From: Mycobacterium sp. UM_CSW
Lineage (GTDB): Bacteria; Actinomycetota; Actinomycetes; Mycobacteriales; Mycobacteriaceae
Direction: 5' to 3'
Assembly (NCBI RefSeq): GCF_000455205.1
Contig: NZ_AUWQ01000026.1
Coordinates: 1-64,000 of the forward strand
Length of the DNA stretch: 64,000 bases
The notes beneath the pieces were generated by a model that was given only the letters and a program-made list of their open reading frames with translations, was not told the origin of the DNA and searched no databases. A program made the translations under genes and the position numbers. Of this stretch, positions 39,623-48,980 are shown piece after piece (positions within the stretch are counted from its first letter, which is position 1; every line of letters begins with the position of its first letter).

Positions 39623-40416
39623 GACTGGAGAAGGTCCGCGAGATCGGTGACCACCACGTCGGCGCCGTTGCGGCGCAGATCCTCGGCCTGGCCCACCCGG
39701 TCGACACCCACCACGTAGCCGAAGTTACCGGCCCGGCCGGCCTGCACGCCGGACAGCGCGTCCTCGAAGACGGCCGCGGCGTCCGCGGGGACATCGAGCA
39801 GCTCCGCCCCGCGCAGGTAGGAGTCGGGGGCCGGCTTGCCGGCGATGTGCTCGTCGCGCAGCGTGACGCCGTCCACCCGCTTCTGGACGAACCGGTCGAG
39901 GCCGGTGATCTCGAGGACATCGCGGGTGTTGGCGCTCGAGGACACCACGGCGATGCCGAGGCCGGCGGCCGAGACCGCCTCCAGGTAGCGGCGCGATCCC
40001 TCAAACACCTCGACGCCGTCGTCGCGCAGGACCTTCTGGAACATGTCGTTCTTGCGGTTGCCGAGGCCGTATATCGTCTCGGCGTCGCCCGGGTCGTCCG
40101 GATCGCCGTCCGGCAGCTCGATTCCCCTGCTCTGAAGGAACGACCGGACGCCGTCCTCGCGCTTTTTGCCGTCCACGTACTTGCGGTAGTCGGCGGCCGC
40201 GTCGAAGGGGACGAATTCTTCTCCCGTTCGCTTGGCCCGCTCGGCCAGGTAGGCGTCGAACATGGCCTTCCAGGCCTTGGTGTGAACGCTCGCGGTATCG
40301 GTGAGCACCCCGTCGAGGTCGAACAGGCAGGCGCGCACCTTCTCCGGCAGACCCAGCACAGGTGACCTCACTCTCGGGTATCGGGCGATTACTTGGTGCG
40401 ATACCCACTCCACCAT
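39619..40416 (-). CDS. HAD-family beta-phosphoglucomutase-type enzyme
   Basis: A 265-residue HAD phosphatase/mutase (Rv3400-like). Motif I is [21 protein letters not shown], with the nucleophile Asp and the general-acid Asp; motif II is [12 protein letters not shown]; the Lys of motif III is in HIAGKPAPD; and motif IV is [14 protein letters not shown]. In a pair with GH65 it would turn beta-glucose-1-phosphate into glucose-6-phosphate. The ATG at 40416 gives an N-terminal extension of about 25 residues before the domain. Confidence 0.92.
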
Positions 40417-40461
40417 GCTGAGATGCCTGCCGCCAGGGATCGCGGCCTTTGCGGCACCCGT

Positions 40462-41073
40462 TTACGCGTCGTTCAGCAGGCCGCGCTCGATGAGGTCGAA
40501 CACCTGGGTCCGTGCGAAACGGACGGCCGCCGGGCTTTGAGGGAGCGGTCCGTCGAGCAGCAGGCAGGCCAGCCCGTGCACCGCCGACCAGGCGGCGATC
40601 TCGGCCCCGGGCCGGCGCCGCGCGTCCAGCAGGCCGGCCGCTTGGGCCTCGTCGAGCACCTGGCCGAGGACCCCGAATGGGTCGGCGGTCGTGTCGGTTG
40701 CCCCGGGGGACGTCGCGGGGTGCGACGTGAACGCGGTGCGAAACAATCCCGGCTCGGACATCGCGAAGTCGATGTAGGCGGTGCCGACCGCGCGCAGCCT
40801 CTTGCGCGGGTCGTTGGTGCGACTGACGCGCCGGCGCATCTGCGCGGCGAGCTCGTCGCGCGCGTAGCTCGACACCTCGGCCAGCAGCGCCTCACGGTCG
40901 GCGAAGTGGCGGTAGGCGGCCGAGTGCGACACCCCGGCGGCGCGGGCCGCCTCGCGCAGGATCACCCGGTCGGGCCCACCCTCGCGGGCCAGCGCGATGC
41001 TCGCCTCGACCAGGGCCGAGTGCAACGCACCGTGGTGGTAGCCCCTTTTGGCAGGGGGGCCGACGGAATTCAT
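40462..41073 (-). CDS. TetR-family regulator, WHG-type C-domain
   Basis: A 203-residue regulator. The HTH is LVEASIALAREGGPDRVILREAARAAGVSHSAAYRHFADREALL in essence (residues 20-65), and the C-terminal half contains GLARREAG-like helices ending WSAVHGLACLLLDGPLP, the WHG pattern. It is divergent from an NmrA-family gene with two similar inverted repeats in the 109-bp gap, which marks the likely target. Confidence 0.9.
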   Translation of the reverse strand: MNSVGPPAKRGYHHGALHSALVEASIALAREGGPDRVILREAARAAGVSHSAAYRHFADREALLAEVSSYARDELAAQMRRRVSRTNDPRKRLRAVGTAYIDFAMSEPGLFRTAFTSHPATSPGATDTTADPFGVLGQVLDEAQAAGLLDARRRPGAEIAAWSAVHGLACLLLDGPLPQSPAAVRFARTQVFDLIERGLLNDA

Positions 41074-41099
41074 GCCATCACGATCTCACGCCGGCTGGA

Positions 41100-41155
41100 A
41101 TGTTGACAACGGTCACATTAGCGGCGCATACTGCGGATGTAACCATCGGTCACAT
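41100..41155. promoter_or_regulatory. Pair of operators between TetR and NmrA genes
   Basis: Two 19-bp sites share ATGT-N6 or 7-CGGTCACAT. The right one (41137-41155) is ATGTAACC-ATC-GGTCACAT with seven of eight arm pairs matching. The left one (41100-41118) keeps only the outer ATGT/ACAT pairs but has the same CGGTCACATT half. Centres are 37 bp apart. Confidence 0.75.
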
Positions 41156-41182
41156 TTCGGCTCGAAAGGGAAGGAAAGTTCA

Positions 41183-42304
41183 ATGACGAACACACGTGTG
41201 CTAGTCACCGGCGCGACGGGAAGGATAGGCGGCGCCGTGGTGGCCCAATTGCTGGAAAGGGGCGTGCCGACGCGGGCACTGGTGCGCCGCGACGACGCGC
41301 GCAGTGCCCGGCTGCGGACGTTGGGCGCCGAGGTCGCTGTGGCGGATATGCTTGACATTCAACAGGTTCGGGCCGCGGTCGAGGGCGTGGACCGGTTGTT
41401 CTTCAACCCTCCGTACCACCCGCACGCGCTCGACAGCGCGGTGAGCTTCGCCGTGGCCGCGCGCGACGCCGGCGTCGAGGCGGTGGTCGCGCTGGGCCAG
41501 TGGCTGGCCAGCCCCGAGCATCCGTCGCTGATGACGCGCCAGCACTGGTTGTCCGACAAGCTGTTTCGGCTGTTGCCAGACACCGCCCACGTCGCGGTCG
41601 ATCCCGGCTTCTTCGCGGACAACTATTTCATGGCGCTGCCGGTTACCGTCCAACTCGGGGTGCTGCCGGCACCGAGCACCGGGGGACGACTCAACGCGCC
41701 CCCGTCCAACGAGGACATCGCCCGGGTCGCGGTGGGCGCATTGCTCGACCCGCATCGCCACGACGGTCGGGCCTACCGCCCGACCGGGCCAAAGCTGTTG
41801 TCCGGCAAAGAGGTCGCGGAGATAGTGGGTGACGCCATGGGGCGGCGGGTCCGCCTCATGGAAATGCCCCCGTGGATGTTCATGCGAGCGGTGCACGTGA
41901 ACGCCAAGCGACTCGGAGTCGACACGTACTTCGAGTCCGGGTTGCGCCACTACCTGCCCGAGACCGCGCTGGGAGTCTGGGAGGTGGGCGGCCCGACCAC
42001 CCACGTGCGCGACGTCGCCGGGGTCGAACCCGAAGACTTCCTCACGATCGCCCGCCGCTACGTCGAGGCGGCGGACACCCGGCGCACCCCGGGAAAAGTG
42101 TTGCGCGAGATCGGGAATCTGATGCTGACCGGCCTGGTGCCCGCGCACCGGCTCGACCGCTTCGACAGGCGCCAGCAACATCCCCAGCCCGCCCGGCCCC
42201 GGTATTCGGCCGAGTCGGCCGTGTGGCAACGCGAGCACGCCCCGTCGGTTGACCCGGCCCGCTACCGGTACGGCCTAGGCAAGTTGGCGGTCGATGTCCA
42301 GTAG
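41183..42304 (+). CDS. NmrA-like NAD(P)-binding protein
   Basis: A 373-residue atypical SDR. The Rossmann motif is RVLVTGATGRIGGAVVAQLLERG at residues 4-26, then RALVRRDDARS. The catalytic YxxxK is not present, as usual for NmrA proteins, which sense NADP or bind quinones. A C-terminal region of about 80 residues beyond the usual length ends in a basic, Pro-rich tail. GGGAAGGAAAG precedes the ATG. It is the likely target of the divergent TetR. Its last 30 bp overlap the convergent DinB gene. Confidence 0.85.
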   Translation: MTNTRVLVTGATGRIGGAVVAQLLERGVPTRALVRRDDARSARLRTLGAEVAVADMLDIQQVRAAVEGVDRLFFNPPYHPHALDSAVSFAVAARDAGVEAVVALGQWLASPEHPSLMTRQHWLSDKLFRLLPDTAHVAVDPGFFADNYFMALPVTVQLGVLPAPSTGGRLNAPPSNEDIARVAVGALLDPHRHDGRAYRPTGPKLLSGKEVAEIVGDAMGRRVRLMEMPPWMFMRAVHVNAKRLGVDTYFESGLRHYLPETALGVWEVGGPTTHVRDVAGVEPEDFLTIARRYVEAADTRRTPGKVLREIGNLMLTGLVPAHRLDRFDRRQQHPQPARPRYSAESAVWQREHAPSVDPARYRYGLGKLAVDVQ

Positions 42305-42781
42305 GTGGTGACGCACCTCGTGCATCGTGTTGACGGCCACCCAGCGGAGCGTCCGCTGGGTGCGCCGCGGCCAGTTGTAGACGATGCGGAGCTCCCAGTC
42401 GGCGTCGTCGAGCCGGCGCAGGGTGTTCGCCAGCAGCCGCGCCGCGACCGTCAGCTCCTCGGCGACTTCGGCGGGGTCGCTTTCGGCGTACCCCTCGTGG
42501 GCGACGCGTTCGTCGCGGCCCATCGGCACGGCGGCGGGCACGTCGACGCGTCGGGCCAGCAGCACCCGCTCACGCTGCGTGATCAGTACGTCGCGGAGGT
42601 GGCAGGCGTATTCGAGCGGTGACCACAGCTTTTGCGCGGTGCGCCTCGCGAGGGTGGCCGCCTCGACGGTGGCGAGCAGCCGGGCCAATTCGGCAACGCC
42701 ACCCCGGATCTCGTCACCGGCCCGCGTTGCGGCGGTCAGGTCGTATGCGAATCCGCACTCATCGCACCGTTGCACCAGCAC
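42275..42781 (-). CDS. DinB-superfamily protein
   Basis: A 168-residue four-helix-bundle protein of the DinB/YfiT/mycothiol-transferase superfamily. The three His usual for metal binding are suggested by ACHLRDV and HEVRHHLLDIDRQLA. The N-terminus has a CDECGF pair of cysteines. Relatives carry out mycothiol- or bacillithiol-dependent transfers. The GTG start lies 3 bp after the stop of the small membrane protein, so it is the last gene of the minus-strand operon that begins with the exporter at 47267. Confidence 0.82.
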   Translation of the reverse strand: MLVQRCDECGFAYDLTAATRAGDEIRGGVAELARLLATVEAATLARRTAQKLWSPLEYACHLRDVLITQRERVLLARRVDVPAAVPMGRDERVAHEGYAESDPAEVAEELTVAARLLANTLRRLDDADWELRIVYNWPRRTQRTLRWVAVNTMHEVRHHLLDIDRQLA

Positions 42782-42784
42782 AGC

Positions 42785-43180
42785 TTATGGGCGGGCGCTG
42801 CGCCGACGGACCGGTAGCCAACACGCGGCCAACGGGACGGTGGTGAGCAATCCGAGCGCGACCACGCCGGCCAGATGCCGGTGCTCGTCGCGCATCGCGA
42901 TCGCCATGACCAGCATGACGCCGAAATGCGCTGCGTTGGCGGTGAGATTGAAATCGAGGAAGAGTCGGTTCGCCAGCGGGTCGCGCGCCGATGCGAACAG
43001 GAACAGCGCCCAGACGATGTAGACGGTGGCGAACATGACCGCGATCGCGTCGCCCCCGGAGCCCCAGTCGAAGAGCGCGTTGGCCCGATGCGTTATCGCG
43101 AACACCAGGTCGGGCACGAAGAAGAGCAGGTACCCGACCGCGGTCAGCCGGATGACTACCCGAAGCCAGGCCTGCCTCAT
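42785..43180 (-). CDS. Small four-helix membrane protein
   Basis: A 131-residue integral membrane protein, not recognised by family. Helices: VVIRLTAVGYLLFFVPDLVFAI, AVMFATVYIVWALFLFASA, LTANAAHFGVMLVMAIAM and LAGVVALGLLTTVPLAACWL. The basic end VRRRSARP probably faces the cytosol. Its ATG overlaps the stop of the hydrolase gene (ATGA), showing tight coupling. It is in an operon with methyltransferases and an exporter; a DoxX- or DUF-type helper role is possible but unproved. Confidence 0.75.
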   Translation of the reverse strand: MRQAWLRVVIRLTAVGYLLFFVPDLVFAITHRANALFDWGSGGDAIAVMFATVYIVWALFLFASARDPLANRLFLDFNLTANAAHFGVMLVMAIAMRDEHRHLAGVVALGLLTTVPLAACWLPVRRRSARP

Positions 43181-44070
43181 GAACCCGGTTGGCTGTGCGC
43201 AATGATGCGGACCATCTCCGTGGGGCGTTCGAGGGCCGAGAAGTGGCCCGCGCCGCTTACCGTGACGGCCCGGACACCCAGTAGGCGGGCGACCTGGTCC
43301 CGCTCCGCGGGGCGGGACCAGTCGTGCTCGCTGTAGACCAGCGTGACCGGCGTCTTCACCTGCGGGTAGCGGTCTTTCGCGTTGATGAGCCCGGGAAGGA
43401 CGCGCATGATGGCCCGATTCACCCGGGGGTAGCCGGGGCGGCGACCGCTGCGGCGCAACTCGACGAGGAAGTCCTTCGGCAGCGCGCCGGCGTCGGCGAA
43501 GCCGCCGGCCAGCACGCCGCGCAGGATGAGGCGATTCTCGAGCGCGGCGAAGACCGGTCCGGAACCGGGCAGGCGGACGCCCGTCCCGATCACGCGGGCG
43601 AACCAGTTGCCGCGTTCGAGGCCATTGGGGTAGTCGTAGGGGTTGAAGGCGATCACGTTGCTCACCCGGTCGGTCAGCTCGATCGAGGCCAGCAGCGCGA
43701 GCGCGCCGCCCATCGATTCGCCCGCCAGCGTGACGTCGCGCAGGTCTAGAGTCCTGACGAATTCTACGACCGCGCAGCGCAATTCGGCCTCCCCGTACCG
43801 GGCGCCGGGTACGACGTCGGACCAGCCCATGCCGGGCAGGTCCAGCGCGTACACTGTGAAGTCGTCCCACAGCGCCGGCACCACTCGCTGGAAGTAGTCC
43901 AGCTGCGTGCGGACGGTGTGCAGCAGGACGAGCGGTGGGCCGGTTCCCGCCGTGAAGTAGCGCAACCGGGAGCCGTCCGATCGCCGGAGGAACCTGACCT
44001 CGCCGCGGCCGCCGCTCCACGCCAGCGTGTAGTGTTGTTCCGGAATCTCGTTGGGGGCCATCGTGGTCAC
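43177..44070 (-). CDS. Alpha/beta hydrolase of the methyltransferase-exporter operon
   Basis: A 297-residue hydrolase with a complete triad: nucleophile in LAGESMGGALALL, acid in VYSEHDWSRPAE, His in SGAGHFSALERP; the oxyanion region is VLLHTVRTQLDYF, without the common HG. It resembles ester and carbon-carbon bond hydrolases of small lipophilic molecules. The GTG at 44070 overlaps the stop of the methyltransferase gene (GTGA); ATG 44061 (MAPNEIPEQ) is the alternative. Confidence 0.87.
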   Translation of the reverse strand: MTTMAPNEIPEQHYTLAWSGGRGEVRFLRRSDGSRLRYFTAGTGPPLVLLHTVRTQLDYFQRVVPALWDDFTVYALDLPGMGWSDVVPGARYGEAELRCAVVEFVRTLDLRDVTLAGESMGGALALLASIELTDRVSNVIAFNPYDYPNGLERGNWFARVIGTGVRLPGSGPVFAALENRLILRGVLAGGFADAGALPKDFLVELRRSGRRPGYPRVNRAIMRVLPGLINAKDRYPQVKTPVTLVYSEHDWSRPAERDQVARLLGVRAVTVSGAGHFSALERPTEMVRIIAHSQPGS

Positions 44071-44870
44071 CGTTCGCACAGCGCCTGGATGGCGCGCAGG
44101 CGCCCGTCGGCCAGGGCCCCGGTCAGGTTTTCGGCCTTTCGGCGGAAGTCGGTGACGAACGCGTGCAGGCCCAGCGGGCCGTCGGGCTGGGCCAGGATGG
44201 CCTGCATGAGCGCGGCCGCCTGGTCGGTGAGGTCGTTCCACGCCGTGACGGTGAAACCCGCGGACTCGACCGCGGCGCGCAGCTCGTCGGGGGTCGCCAG
44301 GTGGCTGCGCGCGGGTTCGTCGGCCCAGGGCAGGGGATAGGTGAGCTCGATGCCGCCGCCAATCGTGATGTCCCACAGGGCGAGTCGCCCGCCGTCCTTG
44401 AGCACCCGATGCGCCTCGGAGTATAGGCGCGCCTTGTCGGCCACGTTCATCTGGACGTGCTGGCTGATGGCGACGTCGAACGTGCCGTCGGCGAAGGGGA
44501 GTTCGGTGACGTCGGCCTGACGAACCGAGATCAGGTCGCCGAGTCCGACCAGCCCGTTGAGCCAGCGGTTGGTTTCGCAGTATTCGTCGGTGAGGTCCAC
44601 CGCGGCGACCCGAGCGCAGAAGCGGTCCGCGACATAGCGCGCGGTGCCGCCGACGCCGCTGCCGGCGTCGAGGACGTCACTGTCATTGGTGATCCCCGCC
44701 AGGTCGACCAGTTGGGCGGTGGCGATGCGGCCCATGGTGTGGAAGTCCTCCAGCATCGCCAGGTCGGCGGGCGCCAGGTGGTCGAGGTCCATTCCGGCGG
44801 AGCGCAGCGCGCGTTCGATGTTGTTGCGGGACAAGCCTGTCGAGTACTGGGCCTGGATTACGGAGTTCAT
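44067..44870 (-). CDS. SAM-dependent methyltransferase, UbiE/sterol-type
   Basis: A 267-residue class I methyltransferase. Motif I is DVLDAGSGVGGTARYVADRF near residue 64, with the acidic residue in VAAVDLT, then LPFADGTFDVAISQHVQMNV and AHRVLKDGGRLALWDITIG. The pattern is like sarcosine-dimethylglycine or gamma-tocopherol methyltransferases and polyketide O-methyltransferases. The ATG at 44870 overlaps the stop of the preceding methyltransferase (ATGA) and has GGAG upstream. Confidence 0.9.
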   Translation of the reverse strand: MNSVIQAQYSTGLSRNNIERALRSAGMDLDHLAPADLAMLEDFHTMGRIATAQLVDLAGITNDSDVLDAGSGVGGTARYVADRFCARVAAVDLTDEYCETNRWLNGLVGLGDLISVRQADVTELPFADGTFDVAISQHVQMNVADKARLYSEAHRVLKDGGRLALWDITIGGGIELTYPLPWADEPARSHLATPDELRAAVESAGFTVTAWNDLTDQAAALMQAILAQPDGPLGLHAFVTDFRRKAENLTGALADGRLRAIQALCER

Positions 44871-45691
44871 CTCCGCACCTCTGCCCATGCGGTGATGATG
44901 GAAGGCATGGTGATCAGGGCGCCGGCCGCCAGCGCCTCCTCGCGGAAACGTGGCACGAACTCGTTGATGTCACCGAGATCATCCAGGCCGAAGCCGCCTT
45001 GTTCGGCGATGGGCGAGACGAGCCGCCAGACTTCCGCGCCGTAGGCGAGGATGTCGACGTCGGCGGCGGTGCCGATCGGCGCGCCGATGGCCAACTGCGG
45101 CGCCCCAAGGCCGGCGTCGGCGAAGACCGTGTGCAGCGTGGTGCCGAACCGCGGGCTGATGCCCATGGCCTCGAAGGCGCGGACGATGCCCGCGATCACC
45201 CGGCTGAACAGCGGCAGCTCCGGGACGCTGCGCGCCCGGGTGATATCGATCTCGGCGAACGCCACAACGCCGCCGGGGCGCATCAGGGAGGTCAGGCGCC
45301 GCAGCGTGGCGGCCGGGTCGGGCAGGTGCATCAGGATCAGCCAGCCGATCACCGCGTCGACCGGTTCGTCCAGGGCGATCGAGTCGATAGAGGCCTGCGT
45401 GAAACGCACATTGGCCAAGCCCTTTTCGGCGGCGCGGGTGTGGGCCAGTTCGACCATCGCGGGCGCGGCGTCGACGCCGAGGACGCTTCCGGTCGGGCCG
45501 ACCAGCCGGGCGGCGACGAACGACACGTCGCCGGGCCCGCTGCCGATATCGAGCACCCGCATGCCCGGTCGCAGCCCGGCCAGCCGCAGCGCGTGTTCGG
45601 TGTAGCCGTCGTAGAGCCGTCCTTGCAGGAGCAGCCGCTGCACCTCTTCGTCGGCGTGCCCGAGGACATAGCTGCTTTCGGTTGTACTCAT
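44867..45691 (-). CDS. SAM-dependent methyltransferase
   Basis: A 274-residue class I methyltransferase, different from its neighbour. Motif I is MRVLDIGSGPGDVSFVAARLVG near residue 44, then VLGVDAAPAMVELA, ALDEPVDAVIGWLILMHLPDPAATLRRL and MRPGGVVAFAEID. Second gene of the operon, 31 bp after the exporter. With the next methyltransferase it may alkylate the molecule the exporter carries; this is an inference from order. Confidence 0.9.
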   Translation of the reverse strand: MSTTESSYVLGHADEEVQRLLLQGRLYDGYTEHALRLAGLRPGMRVLDIGSGPGDVSFVAARLVGPTGSVLGVDAAPAMVELAHTRAAEKGLANVRFTQASIDSIALDEPVDAVIGWLILMHLPDPAATLRRLTSLMRPGGVVAFAEIDITRARSVPELPLFSRVIAGIVRAFEAMGISPRFGTTLHTVFADAGLGAPQLAIGAPIGTAADVDILAYGAEVWRLVSPIAEQGGFGLDDLGDINEFVPRFREEALAAGALITMPSIITAWAEVRR

Positions 45692-45722
45692 TGGTTTCGT
45701 GCCTTTCTGTGGTTGGGAGTTA

Positions 45723-47267
45723 TTAGGCCCTGGCCAGTTCGGGGGACGGCGTCGCTTGGCGCGCGCGGGCGGGCAGGAGCCAGGCCACGACGATCGCGGA
45801 GCCCAGCGCGATGCCCGCGCACACCAGGGAGCTCACCTGCATGCCGTCGAGAAAGGCGCGATCCACGACGGCGCGGATGTGGCCCGCCTGTTGGATGGGC
45901 AGCCGTCCGATCACCGTGTGCGCCACCGCCATCGAGCGCCGCATCGCGTCGGCGGGCAGTCCGGTCAACGCGGCCGTGCCGAGACGTCCGGAGTACACCG
46001 ACGCGAAGACGCTGCCCGCGATGGCGACGCCGAGGGTGCCGCCGAGTTCGCGCGTGGTGTCGTTGACGGCCGAGCCGACGCCGGCCTTGTCGACCGACAG
46101 CGATCCCATGATGGCCTCGGTAGCCGGCGAAACGGTCAGGCCCAGGCCGCCGCCGAGCAGCAGCATCTGCAGGGCGATCTGGATGTAGGGCGTGGCGGCA
46201 TCGGCCGTGGACGCCCACGCCAGGCCGGCGGCGAACACGGTCAGACCGCCGGCGACGACGGCCGTGGTGCCGATTCGTTCCACCAGCCGGGGCCCCAGGA
46301 TGCTGGCCAACGCGATGGATGCGGCGACCGGAAGCAGGCGCACGCCGGCCTGAAACGCGGTGTAGTCCTTGATGAATTGGAAGTACTGCGTAATTACGAA
46401 GATGAACCCGAACAGGGTAAGGAAGCCGGCGGTGACGGCCAGGCTGCCGCCGGAGAACCGCCGGTTGGCGAACACCGAGACGTCCAGCATCGGGTGGGTG
46501 CTGCGCCGCTCCCACACCGCGAACGCGGCGAGAACGGCTGTCGCGAGGGCGAATCCGGCTGCGGTGCGGACGTTGGTCCATCCCCAGGTGGGCGCCTCGA
46601 TGACGGTGTAGACCAGCGTCGTGATTCCTACCGCGGACAGGATCAGGCCGGGGACGTCGACGCGTGGCGCCGCGGGGTCGCGCGAGGTGGGGACGAACAG
46701 GATTCCCCCGACGATGGCCAGCGCCGCGATGGGGATGTTGACCATGAAGATCGAGCCCCACCAGAAGTGTTCGAGCAGCCAGCCGCCGCTGATCGGCCCG
46801 ACGGCCACCCCCACGCCGACCATGGCCGCCCACAGCCCGATCGCCTTCGCGCGTGGGACCGGGTCGGTGAAGATGTTGGTGATCAGGCCCAGCGTGGTCG
46901 GAAAGATCACCGCGGCGCCGATGCCCATCGCGGCGCGGGCCGCGATCAGCGCGTCGGCCGAATTCACTTGCGCGGCAACGGCGGAGGTGAGCGCGAACAG
47001 CGCGAGTCCGGAGTTGAGCCAGCCCCGCCTGCCGTAGCGGTCGGACAGGCTGCCGGCCGACAGCAGCAGCCCGGCCATGACCAGCGTGTAGGCGTCGACG
47101 ATCCATTGCAGCTGGGCGGTGTCGGCGCCGAGTTCGCGCGACAGGGTGGGCAGGGCGACGTTGACGATGGTGGCATCGACGCTGATGACGAAGACGCCGA
47201 GGCAGATGACGGCGAGCGCGGCTATCGGGCGGTTTTTGAAGATCGGGAAGACGGGTTCGGTACTCAT
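45723..47267 (-). CDS. MFS drug exporter, DHA2 (14-helix) family
   Basis: A 514-residue MFS transporter. The N-terminal region has the DHA2 pattern FVISVDATIVNVALPTLSREL and the motif LSAGSLSDRYGRRG between helices 2 and 3. Fourteen hydrophobic segments can be counted up to AGIALGSAIVVAWLL. It exchanges protons for a lipophilic substrate. The ATG at 47267 (MSTEPVFPIF) is used; a TTG- or ATG-type start further upstream is less likely. First gene of a six-gene operon, divergent from an HxlR regulator with 79 bp between. Confidence 0.92.
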   Translation of the reverse strand: MSTEPVFPIFKNRPIAALAVICLGVFVISVDATIVNVALPTLSRELGADTAQLQWIVDAYTLVMAGLLLSAGSLSDRYGRRGWLNSGLALFALTSAVAAQVNSADALIAARAAMGIGAAVIFPTTLGLITNIFTDPVPRAKAIGLWAAMVGVGVAVGPISGGWLLEHFWWGSIFMVNIPIAALAIVGGILFVPTSRDPAAPRVDVPGLILSAVGITTLVYTVIEAPTWGWTNVRTAAGFALATAVLAAFAVWERRSTHPMLDVSVFANRRFSGGSLAVTAGFLTLFGFIFVITQYFQFIKDYTAFQAGVRLLPVAASIALASILGPRLVERIGTTAVVAGGLTVFAAGLAWASTADAATPYIQIALQMLLLGGGLGLTVSPATEAIMGSLSVDKAGVGSAVNDTTRELGGTLGVAIAGSVFASVYSGRLGTAALTGLPADAMRRSMAVAHTVIGRLPIQQAGHIRAVVDRAFLDGMQVSSLVCAGIALGSAIVVAWLLPARARQATPSPELARA

Positions 47268-47346
47268 GCACAAGACGCTAAAGCCATGAGATAGATAAAT
47301 CAAGTAGTAAGTTGAAAAAGATGTCTGCTCCGATTAGAGTGGACTC

Positions 47347-47997
47347 GTGGCGTCACGCCGGATGTACAACCAGAACTGCCCGATCGCGCGCGGACTCGAC
47401 GTTCTCGGCGAGCGGTGGACGCTGCTGATTCTGCGCGAATTGGTCGGTGGACCCCGCCGCTACGGCGACCTGCGCGACGCGTTGCCCGGGATTGCGACCA
47501 ATCTGCTCGCCGAGCGTCTCAAGGAAATGCAGGCGGCCGGGCTCGTCGACCGGACCGACCTGCCCGCCCCGATCGGGCGCACCGTGTACACCCTCAGCGA
47601 CATGGGCTGGCAGCGTGCGCTGCCCGTCCTGCGGAGCGTCGCGTGGTTCGGGCTGGACCGGCTGGACCCGATCGGGGACGGCCCCGCGACGCCGTTGAAC
47701 GGGTTCCTGGCCGGAATCCTGCTCGGCTTCGATTCGGCCGGCGCGGCGGGCCTGGAGGCGACGATCCGCATCGAAATCGACGGCCGTCGTTTCGAATTCG
47801 CCGTGACGCAGGGGCGGCTCGCCGGCGCTCGTGGCGAGCCTTCGGTGAAGATCACCGCCAGCGCCGCGGACCTGGTCGCCGCGCGCCTCGGCGCCAGCGA
47901 GGCCAAGCGGCGGGCGGCGCTGCGGCGCATCGACTTCGATGGCGACCCCGACTCCGACACCGTTGACGCCGTGCGCCGCGCATTCGCACTCGTCTAG
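47347..47997 (+). CDS. HxlR-type regulator fused to an SCP2-like domain
   Basis: A 216-residue protein. Residues 1-100 form an HxlR winged helix: [36 protein letters not shown] with the conserved Cys10, then [13 protein letters not shown] and the wing. Residues 115-216 look like a sterol-carrier-protein-2 fold ([42 protein letters not shown]), a lipid-binding pocket. A repressor that senses a lipid-like ligand would suit the adjacent exporter operon. The GTG at 47347 is the start. Confidence 0.85.
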
Positions 47998-48101
47998 ATC
48001 GACTTTTCCGAAATCGTGGATTTTCGGTCCACACTGCAATACAGTCGTATCGTTTTGCGCCGTTTTCACCTCGAGCATGTCCGAACGAAGGGACGGGTCT
48101 G

Positions 48102-48980
48102 ATGAGTTTTGCGGTGCTGCCACCAGAGGTGACGTCCGCGCAGATGTATACCGGCGCCGGCTCGGGGCCGATGCTGGCCGCCGCGGCGAGCTGGGCCGGG
48201 CTGGGCGACGAGCTGGGGTCGGCGGCGGAGTCGTTCTCCTCGGTGACCTCGGGCCTGGCGGACGGGCCCTGGCAGGGTCCGGCATCGGCGGCCATGGCGG
48301 GCGTGGCCACGCAGTACGCGCAGTGGCTCAACGCATCGGCGGCTCAGGCCGCCGGAGCTGCCGCGCAGGCCAATGCGACTGCCGAGATCTTCGAGGCGGC
48401 CAAGGCGGCGATCACGCACCCGGCGGCCGTCACCGGCAACCGCCTGCAGCTGCTGTCGCTGGTGCGCTCCAACCTGTTCGGGTTCAACGCCCCGGCGATC
48501 GCGGCCACCGAGGGCGCGTACGAGGAGATGTGGGCTCAGAACGTCGCCGCGCTGTCGGGCTATCACAGCGCGGCGTCGGCGGTGGTCGCCCAACTGGCGC
48601 CCTGGCAGCAATTGCCGTCGGCCCAGGCGACTCCGGCGGTGGCCCTCGGTGCTACCCCTTGGGGTCAAATCACCGCGGCGCTCGCCCCCGCGCGAACCCA
48701 GGCCAACGTGGTTGTCGACCTGGCATCCGAGATGGGCAAAGCCGCGCTCCGGGCTGACCTCCAGCAATTGAACAATGTTGCCCGTCCCCTCGCGGCGATT
48801 CCCGTACCACCACCGGTGCAAGCCGTCGAACGCAGCGTGGAAGAGGGCGCCGACGCAATGGCTAGGCTGGCCAGGGGGCTTGAAGCCGAAGCCGAAGCCG
48901 ACGCCGTTTCGCTCATCACTACCGGAGCTTTACCGGCTCCGCCTGCTCCGCCTCCGCCGACCAGTCCGCTCCCGCCGTAG
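48102..48980 (+). CDS. PPE-family protein
   Basis: A 292-residue PPE protein. The N-terminal domain of about 180 residues opens [24 protein letters not shown] and contains the WxG-type turn [12 protein letters not shown] near residue 60, the signal for ESX/type VII secretion. The C-terminal part is Ala-rich and ends in a Pro-rich stretch, [15 protein letters not shown]. No PE gene stands next to it, so any partner must be elsewhere. It ends 4 bp before the convergent peroxiredoxin-like gene. Confidence 0.93.

Follow-up and report, generated by a model that had tools for sequence, protein, structure and literature searches.

Among the described mycobacterial systems, Rv2887/Rv0560c of M. tuberculosis would be the closest functional parallel, and EspN the closest in regulator architecture, to the gene cluster analysed here, which lies in a stretch of 64,000 nucleotides from Mycobacterium sp. 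UM_CSW (contig NZ_AUWQ01000026.1; this whole stretch is hereafter the window) and comprises genes for a divergently transcribed HxlR regulator, a DHA2-type exporter, two methyltransferases and further enzymes. In M. tuberculosis, the ligand-responsive winged-helix repressor Rv2887 controls the small-molecule methyltransferase Rv0560c, which inactivates a drug-like compound by N-methylation; unlike in our cluster, the regulator belongs to the MarR rather than the HxlR type, its gene is not adjacent, and the passages of the paper dealing with this pair mention no exporter or reductase (PMC5526998). EspN (MMAR_1626, Rv1725c) is, in the parts of the paper that treat its architecture, a mycobacterial regulator combining a winged helix with SCP2, and we liken it to our regulator on this ground; it differs in acting on whiB6/ESX-1 in M. 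marinum (PMC11005418). The DUF24 sensors YodB, QsrR and HypR share the HxlR fold, with a conserved N-terminal cysteine that the relevant sections describe as an electrophile sensor (PMC7835342). For simocyclinone, the pertinent passages report the NmrA-like ketoreductase SimC7, a relative of the reductase encoded at our locus (PMC5039031), and inducible efflux in the producer (PMC5812520). Unlike the locus in the window, the simocyclinone genes form a full biosynthetic cluster. The simocyclinone exporter is under a TetR regulator. The drug pumps LfrA and QacA are DHA2 exporters like the one in the window, which nonetheless scores far below their model cut-offs, and both have local regulators, LfrR and QacR. 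We know of no modifying enzymes in the LfrA and QacA loci, and to our knowledge sensors of the YodB/QsrR/HypR type lack an SCP2 part and control neither a methyltransferase nor a DHA2 pump.

Compared with these systems, the families of the single parts are known, and what would be new is the way they are assembled, together with the modular build and the two candidate operators. A preliminary description of this DNA had stated that no mycobacterial system with such a gene set was described. We, too, found no description of the locus or its control sites in our searches of the open-licence literature; the statement has to be narrowed for the regulator, whose type has a described parallel in EspN.

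A modular locus around a three-gene core

The locus is modular. Its core consists of the regulator, the DHA2 exporter and one class I S-adenosylmethionine (SAM) methyltransferase, here called MT2; a second methyltransferase (MT1), a hydrolase, a small membrane protein and a DinB-type protein are optional. The gene set, the promoter-like and operator-like sites, their conservation and the modularity can be read directly from the sequences. In the window, the genes are arranged as follows:

47347-47997, plus strand: HxlR regulator, divergent from the exporter; GTG start 6 nt past the -10 box
45723-47267, minus strand: DHA2-type exporter (Pfam MFS_1; NCBIfam efflux_EmrB)
44867-45691, minus strand: MT1, class I SAM methyltransferase, UbiE/ArsM-like by family profile searches; optional
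44067-44870, minus strand: MT2, class I SAM methyltransferase by family profile searches; core member
43177-44070, minus strand: alpha/beta hydrolase (Pfam), GTG start; optional
42785-43180, minus strand: small DUF6632-like membrane protein (Pfam DUF6632 right at the cut-off); optional
42275-42781, minus strand: DinB_2 superfamily protein (DinB_2 E 3.6e-12), weakly like mycothiol-dependent enzymes; optional
41183-42304, plus strand: NmrA-type reductase (NmrA E 1.8e-21; open reading frame given from 41180), outside the bounds drawn earlier
40462-41073, minus strand: TetR regulator of the reductase side (TetR_N and TetR_C_33)

From the exporter to the DinB gene, the junctions of the minus-strand run are a 31-bp gap, three 4-bp overlaps and a 3-bp gap. 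The preliminary description had recognised this tight run of six genes together with the divergent regulator, and all seven genes lie where it placed them. Its bounds were too narrow, as the NmrA-type reductase and the TetR regulator at 40462-42304 are part of the same module; the reductase and DinB genes stand tail to tail, with 3' ends overlapping by 30 bp. Besides, the membrane protein had been given four helices, of which a hydropathy scan recovered three as segments above the threshold used, the fourth not being shown.

MT2 (E <= 1e-40) was present in 40 of the 198 genomes of our genus sample. Up to 16 kb around MT2 were taken from the 39 other genomes and the window's proteins mapped onto them, with a neighbour defined as a match within 10 kb at no less than 45% identity. 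By this measure, MT2 is accompanied by the exporter in 33 of the 40 loci, by the regulator in 31 (two of the misses, L057 and L066, are contig ends) and by the HAD protein encoded next to the locus in 30. The remaining genes are found near it less often: MT1 in 22 loci, the reductase in 21, the hydrolase in 15, TetR in eight, the membrane protein in five and the DinB protein in three. The full gene set of the window recurs in none of the 39 other loci and in one of 80 named loci (L089, Mycobacterium sp. 1245805.9), so that the six genes cannot be upheld as a fixed unit; homologues do nevertheless occur together in many species, as the counts for exporter and regulator illustrate, which exceed what chance would give.

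The cluster had also been assigned to an accessory segment between a GH65/HAD gene pair and guaA. Its position is confirmed, with GH65 in the surveyed stretch of 22 of the 40 MT2 loci and the GMP synthase gene in that of 20, and the slot between these two is common to many species; given the frequency of the HAD neighbour, it is not private to this genome. Among the matches listed, the nearest named MT2 relatives come from Mycobacterium sp. E796 (94%) and 1245805.9 (92%), and named carriers include M. interjectum, M. scrofulaceum, M. nebraskense, M. bohemicum, M. genavense, M. triplex, M. szulgai, M. persicum and M. innocens. Of 123 MT2 matches, 80 were listed; these do not include M. tuberculosis, which is no proof of absence.

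Distance correlations between module proteins (Mantel r) were 0.71 for regulator and exporter, 0.75 for exporter and MT2, and 0.85 for MT2 and hydrolase. The neighbouring HAD protein, serving as a control, correlated similarly, at 0.58-0.80 with regulator, exporter, MT2 and hydrolase, 0.53 with MT1 and 0.23 with the reductase. We therefore rejected coevolution as judged by distance correlation, and shared descent explains most of the correlation within the module.

Single loci depart from the common layout. The exporter gene is split or truncated in L071, L082 and L201, and in L082 so is MT2; the locus decays in places. In the window's nearest relative (L044, 6049-6840), an unrelated open reading frame fills the slot of the membrane protein between hydrolase and DinB. 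Locus L065 (5691-11182) occupies the same chromosomal slot with a regulator, a DUF302 protein, another alpha/beta hydrolase, an unknown protein, MT2, a TauD-type dioxygenase and TetR, and is without exporter and MT1. In the window, the regulator is followed by a PPE gene and by genes for an AhpC/TSA_2 protein and a P450 (48102-50597), which recur next to the locus only in some relatives; the P450 scores 367 bits against the pentalenolactone synthase model, whose cut-off is 700.

Divergent promoters and the HxlR regulator

The cluster appears to be controlled by a DNA-binding sensor of its own, acting on a single promoter region that serves both directions. The intergene between regulator and exporter, aligned over 30 loci, reads as two head-to-head sigma-70-like promoters with a candidate operator between their boxes:

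47298-47303 and 47275-47280, minus strand: predicted promoter read from the sequence; -35 TTGATT, 17 nt, -10 TAGCGT, 7 nt to the ATG
47312-47317 and 47335-47340, plus strand: predicted promoter read from the sequence and also given by a consensus scan; -35 TTGAAA, 17 nt, -10 TAGAGT, 6 nt to the GTG
47290-47304 (left half-site, by relaxed match): candidate operator half-sites, inside the -35/-10 spacers of both promoters and altered in the window

Judging from the spacing, both divergent promoters are probably leaderless. With a strict pattern, 35 of 42 loci gave the exporter promoter and 15 the regulator promoter. Of the 42 intergenes, 27 contain an inverted repeat, GACA-N28-TGTC, whose spacing is always 28 where 22-30 was allowed, these loci being homologous and not independent. 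At up to one mismatch, the half-site pattern AGACAAATAAATCAAG has one match in each of 30 of the 198 genomes, compared with one match over all 198 for the reversed control. As 29 of these 30 matches adjoin the exporter (the exception being L180), the strong sites are local, as expected for a dedicated sensor. The window's genome yielded no AGACAAATAAATCAAG match at up to one mismatch, and a relaxed match only at 47290-47304.

A consensus promoter scan of 40300-48200 returned two sites, at 41103 and 47312, both on the plus strand and outside the six-gene run. Separate promoters, which would have spoken against the compact unit of the preliminary description, were thus not seen within the run; this silence is weak evidence, because the likely promoter of the exporter itself likewise escapes the scan. 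The compactness itself is borne out by the co-directional genes behind a conserved divergent promoter.

The regulator was proposed to join an HxlR winged helix to an SCP2-like lipid pocket. The first part stands (Pfam HxlR E 1.2e-17, with profile matches to YodB and HxlR structures), and an SCP2-like domain is likely at the C-terminal end: PF02036 matches the window's protein taken alone below the gathering cut-off (E 0.015) and, at E <= 1, matches 16 of 19 orthologues, with a best value of 7.8e-5. Cys11 is invariant in all 19 orthologues; for DUF24/HxlR relatives, the relevant sections of the literature report the conserved cysteine as an electrophile sensor, quinones included (PMC7835342). 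Formaldehyde sensing as in B. subtilis HxlR was considered and rejected, since according to the same sections it needs Cys11-Lys13 (PMC7835342) and the window's protein reads Cys11-Pro12-Ile13, without Lys13.

Regulator homologues (E <= 1e-50) are present in 47 of the 198 genus genomes. The window's own genome holds a second one, 69% identical and divergent from a short-chain dehydrogenase gene (G000:C5:86067-86702, L204); a similar site, ACAAACAAATCAAG, lies upstream of it. G051 (L206) has a comparable pair, and L213 another, there with an exporter at greater distance.

The TetR and reductase half and loci outside the genus

The reductase matches NmrA with 77.5 bits at a cut-off of 27, and its relatives among the PDB matches are an NmrA protein, the ketoreductase SimC7, two entries named monooxygenase, triphenylmethane reductase and ytfG. 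Within the 40 MT2 loci, it accompanies TetR in the window and in L044-L049 (seven loci), lies within the operon in 13, and is placed between TetR and MT2 in L075; none of the 40 loci has both placements together, second copies elsewhere in the genomes not having been searched for. Two predicted copies of a TetR operator lie between TetR and the reductase gene:

41101-41118: predicted TetR operator copy, TGTTGACAACGGTCACAT
41138-41155: predicted TetR operator copy, TGTAACCATCGGTCACAT

Between TetR and reductase, the site pair TGTTGACAACGGTCACAT and TGTAACCATYGGTCACAT is conserved in 22 aligned rows, which amount to 16 genomes because six contigs were entered twice. In the genome of the window's strain (6.39 Mb), the TetR site has 21 matches at up to two mismatches, both strands counted, versus four for the reversed control. 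TetR is found directly beside MT2 in Nocardia aurantiaca (L164), in a Mycobacterium metagenome-assembled genome (MAG; L148) and in two family genomes (L231, L232), and one gene away in three Kribbella loci (L165-L167), the intervening gene being called in L165 and L166. Both site copies recur between TetR and MT2 in L232, and L164 has a clear first and a degenerate second copy. No match to the site was obtained in the stretches taken from Kribbella L165 and L166 or from L231, the last of which is probably coding. In L165 and L166, a different inverted repeat (GTGGACA..TGTCCAC) occurs twice between TetR and the next gene. The window's clade seems to combine the regulator/exporter half with the TetR/reductase half.

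Beyond the genus, regulator, exporter and MT2 occur in the same divergent order in Nocardia alni (L149) and on two Actinomycetes MAG contigs, with identities of 63-68% for MT2, about 51% for the exporter and about 51% for the regulator over its first 100 residues, the HxlR part, only. Of 301 genomes sampled from the family, 14 contained MT2 (E <= 1e-80), six of these belonging to two other genera. In these sister genera, a regulator match lies 150 bp from MT2 in L233 and 1.4 kb from it in L235, TetR is found in L231 and L232, and L230 and L234 have none. Plasmids of Variovorax, Nocardioides and Bradyrhizobium carry distant relatives of MT2, which were set aside, their gene contexts being uninformative.

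Inactivation and efflux, and its rivals

The exporter scores 248 bits against TIGR00711 (efflux_EmrB, EmrB-type DHA2), above the cut-off of 230.2. Its nearest curated models are SmvA, LfrA and QepA, all at scores far below their cut-offs; for LfrA and QacA, it reaches 267.8 of 825 and 233.7 of 900 bits, respectively. Among solved structures, the exporter is closest to an antiseptic resistance protein (234 bits), which we take to be of the QacA type, with EfpA second. Family and PDB searches revealed no close characterised relative of MT2; its solved relatives, all at low score, are phosphoethanolamine, glucose, mitomycin and sarcosine/dimethylglycine methyltransferases. MT1 aligns with the Rv0560c structure over residues 45-161 only (30.6 bits, E 2.4e-6), which falls short of close full-length similarity, and Rv0560c is absent among the MT2 matches at E <= 1e-5. 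In the hydrolase, Ser119, Asp250 and His276 are invariant in all 14 full-length copies and would form an esterase/lactonase-type triad. The DinB protein exceeds the cut-off of DinB_2 and stays below those of the mycothiol enzyme models (MST, 20.8 of 27 bits, E 6e-4; MDMPI_N, 21.1 of 24.2 bits, E 5e-4); a PDB search with it gave nothing useful.

This recurring mycobacterial cluster probably modifies and pumps out small molecules, be they foreign or self-made. More specifically, we favour, at about an even chance, an inducible module for small-molecule inactivation and efflux that is directed against an aromatic or electrophilic compound. A response to electrophiles or aromatics is preferred on account of an exporter like antiseptic resistance proteins and drug pumps, a reductase akin to one aryl ketoreductase and one dye reductase, and Cys11. 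We infer repression, an operon transcript, a ligand, an order of reactions and a detoxifying purpose along the following lines. At rest, the HxlR-SCP2 regulator would occupy the inverted repeat in both spacers and keep itself and the exporter operon off. A toxic, probably aromatic or electrophilic compound would meet the regulator via Cys11 and/or the SCP2-like end and cause its release, upon which exporter, hydrolase and methyltransferases would all be made from a leaderless operon transcript. The NmrA reductase, next to its own TetR here and inside the operon in many species, would reduce a carbonyl or quinone; MT2, with MT1 where present, would cap the resulting hydroxyl or amine with a methyl group; the hydrolase would open an ester or lactone; and the DHA2 pump would export the product. 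A pump and modifying enzymes make up the mapped module proteins, and their exchange around a constant core is in keeping with chemical defence.

A bolder version, which we put forward tentatively and regard as rather unlikely in its full form, would make this a two-sensor, reduce-methylate-export defence locus of non-tuberculous mycobacteria. Here, MT2 would found a new methyltransferase family against one aromatic or quinonoid class of compounds, served by the HxlR-SCP2 regulator with the pump or by TetR with the NmrA reductase depending on the species, and by both in the window's clade.

Several observations weigh against the inactivation-and-efflux module. The window is among the 15 of 42 intergenes that lack GACA-N28-TGTC, its own half-sites being altered, and Mycobacterium sp. 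E796, its nearest relative (L044/L190), keeps the operator and has no regulator gene next to the exporter; two other close regulator homologues are found elsewhere in the E796 genome. With the operator kept without an adjacent regulator in the one, and the regulator kept with altered half-sites in the other, regulation may be eroding in this clade. Five of the 40 genus loci hold MT2 without any mapped neighbour, regulator-exporter pairs without an adjacent MT2 occur as well (several with the hydrolase), and none of the six sister-genus loci has a close exporter beside MT2. Inheritance, moreover, looks mostly vertical, unlike that of a freely moving cassette.

Two further points of this kind bear on the main rival, the tailoring and export of a secondary metabolite of the organism's own, for which the scaffold would be made elsewhere, the locus would reduce, methylate, trim and export it, and the regulator would sense the product. 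First, in Nocardia alni (L149, 6624-12660) MT2 is directly followed by genes for a KAS III-like enzyme, whose nearest solved relatives are daunorubicin polyketide synthase DpsC type, CerJ and ChlB3, for an AMP ligase and for a marginal acyl carrier protein; this looks biosynthetic, possibly a small cluster of its own, and favours tailoring or self-protection there. Second, 205 of the 408 predicted genes around MT2 carry no label from the window's proteins, so that a biosynthetic partner could be missed; the six common unlabelled groups that were scanned turned out to be guaA, GH65, an acyl-CoA dehydrogenase and two types of dehydrogenase, the sixth having no match. The likeness of the reductase to SimC7, named a simocyclinone tailoring enzyme in the passages concerned (PMC5039031), points in the same direction, as does the tetracenomycin exporter model, which matches the pump below its cut-off. 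We still consider tailoring unlikely, if the most serious of the alternatives: its biosynthetic context is confined to one locus, close relatives differ in which of the modifying genes they carry, and no gene for making a scaffold was identified in the genus loci, where no systematic search was made and the unlabelled half of the genes remains.

An improbable explanation, and the one adopted in the preliminary description, is that a lipid or lipophilic envelope component is modified, exported and sensed via the SCP2 pocket. It can draw on the SCP2-like end of the regulator and on EfpA, a mycobacterial pump with lipophilic cargo, which is among the exporter's solved relatives but matches less well than the antiseptic resistance protein does. 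The exporter is nearer to drug pumps, however, the module proteins include no lipid-making enzyme, and the matches of both methyltransferases to the cyclopropane synthase profile stay beneath the cut-off. That the cluster methylates, hydrolyses and exports a lipophilic molecule was a guess, and nothing in our analysis points to a lipid.

Least probable of all is that regulator and exporter form a loose pair and just share a transcript with unrelated neighbours: pair and MT2 each occur without the other, and the DinB and membrane proteins are rare, but MT2, MT1, reductase and hydrolase recur with the pair in many arrangements, and the reductase swaps between two positions without taking both in any of the 40 loci.

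If the inactivation-and-efflux module is real, many environmental and opportunistic mycobacteria would carry a dedicated, inducible enzyme-plus-pump unit. Its two candidate operators could act as ligand reporters and so allow a direct search for the inducing compound. The locus would also offer a metabolically readable target for regulators of the HxlR-SCP2 type, which is known in mycobacteria through EspN.

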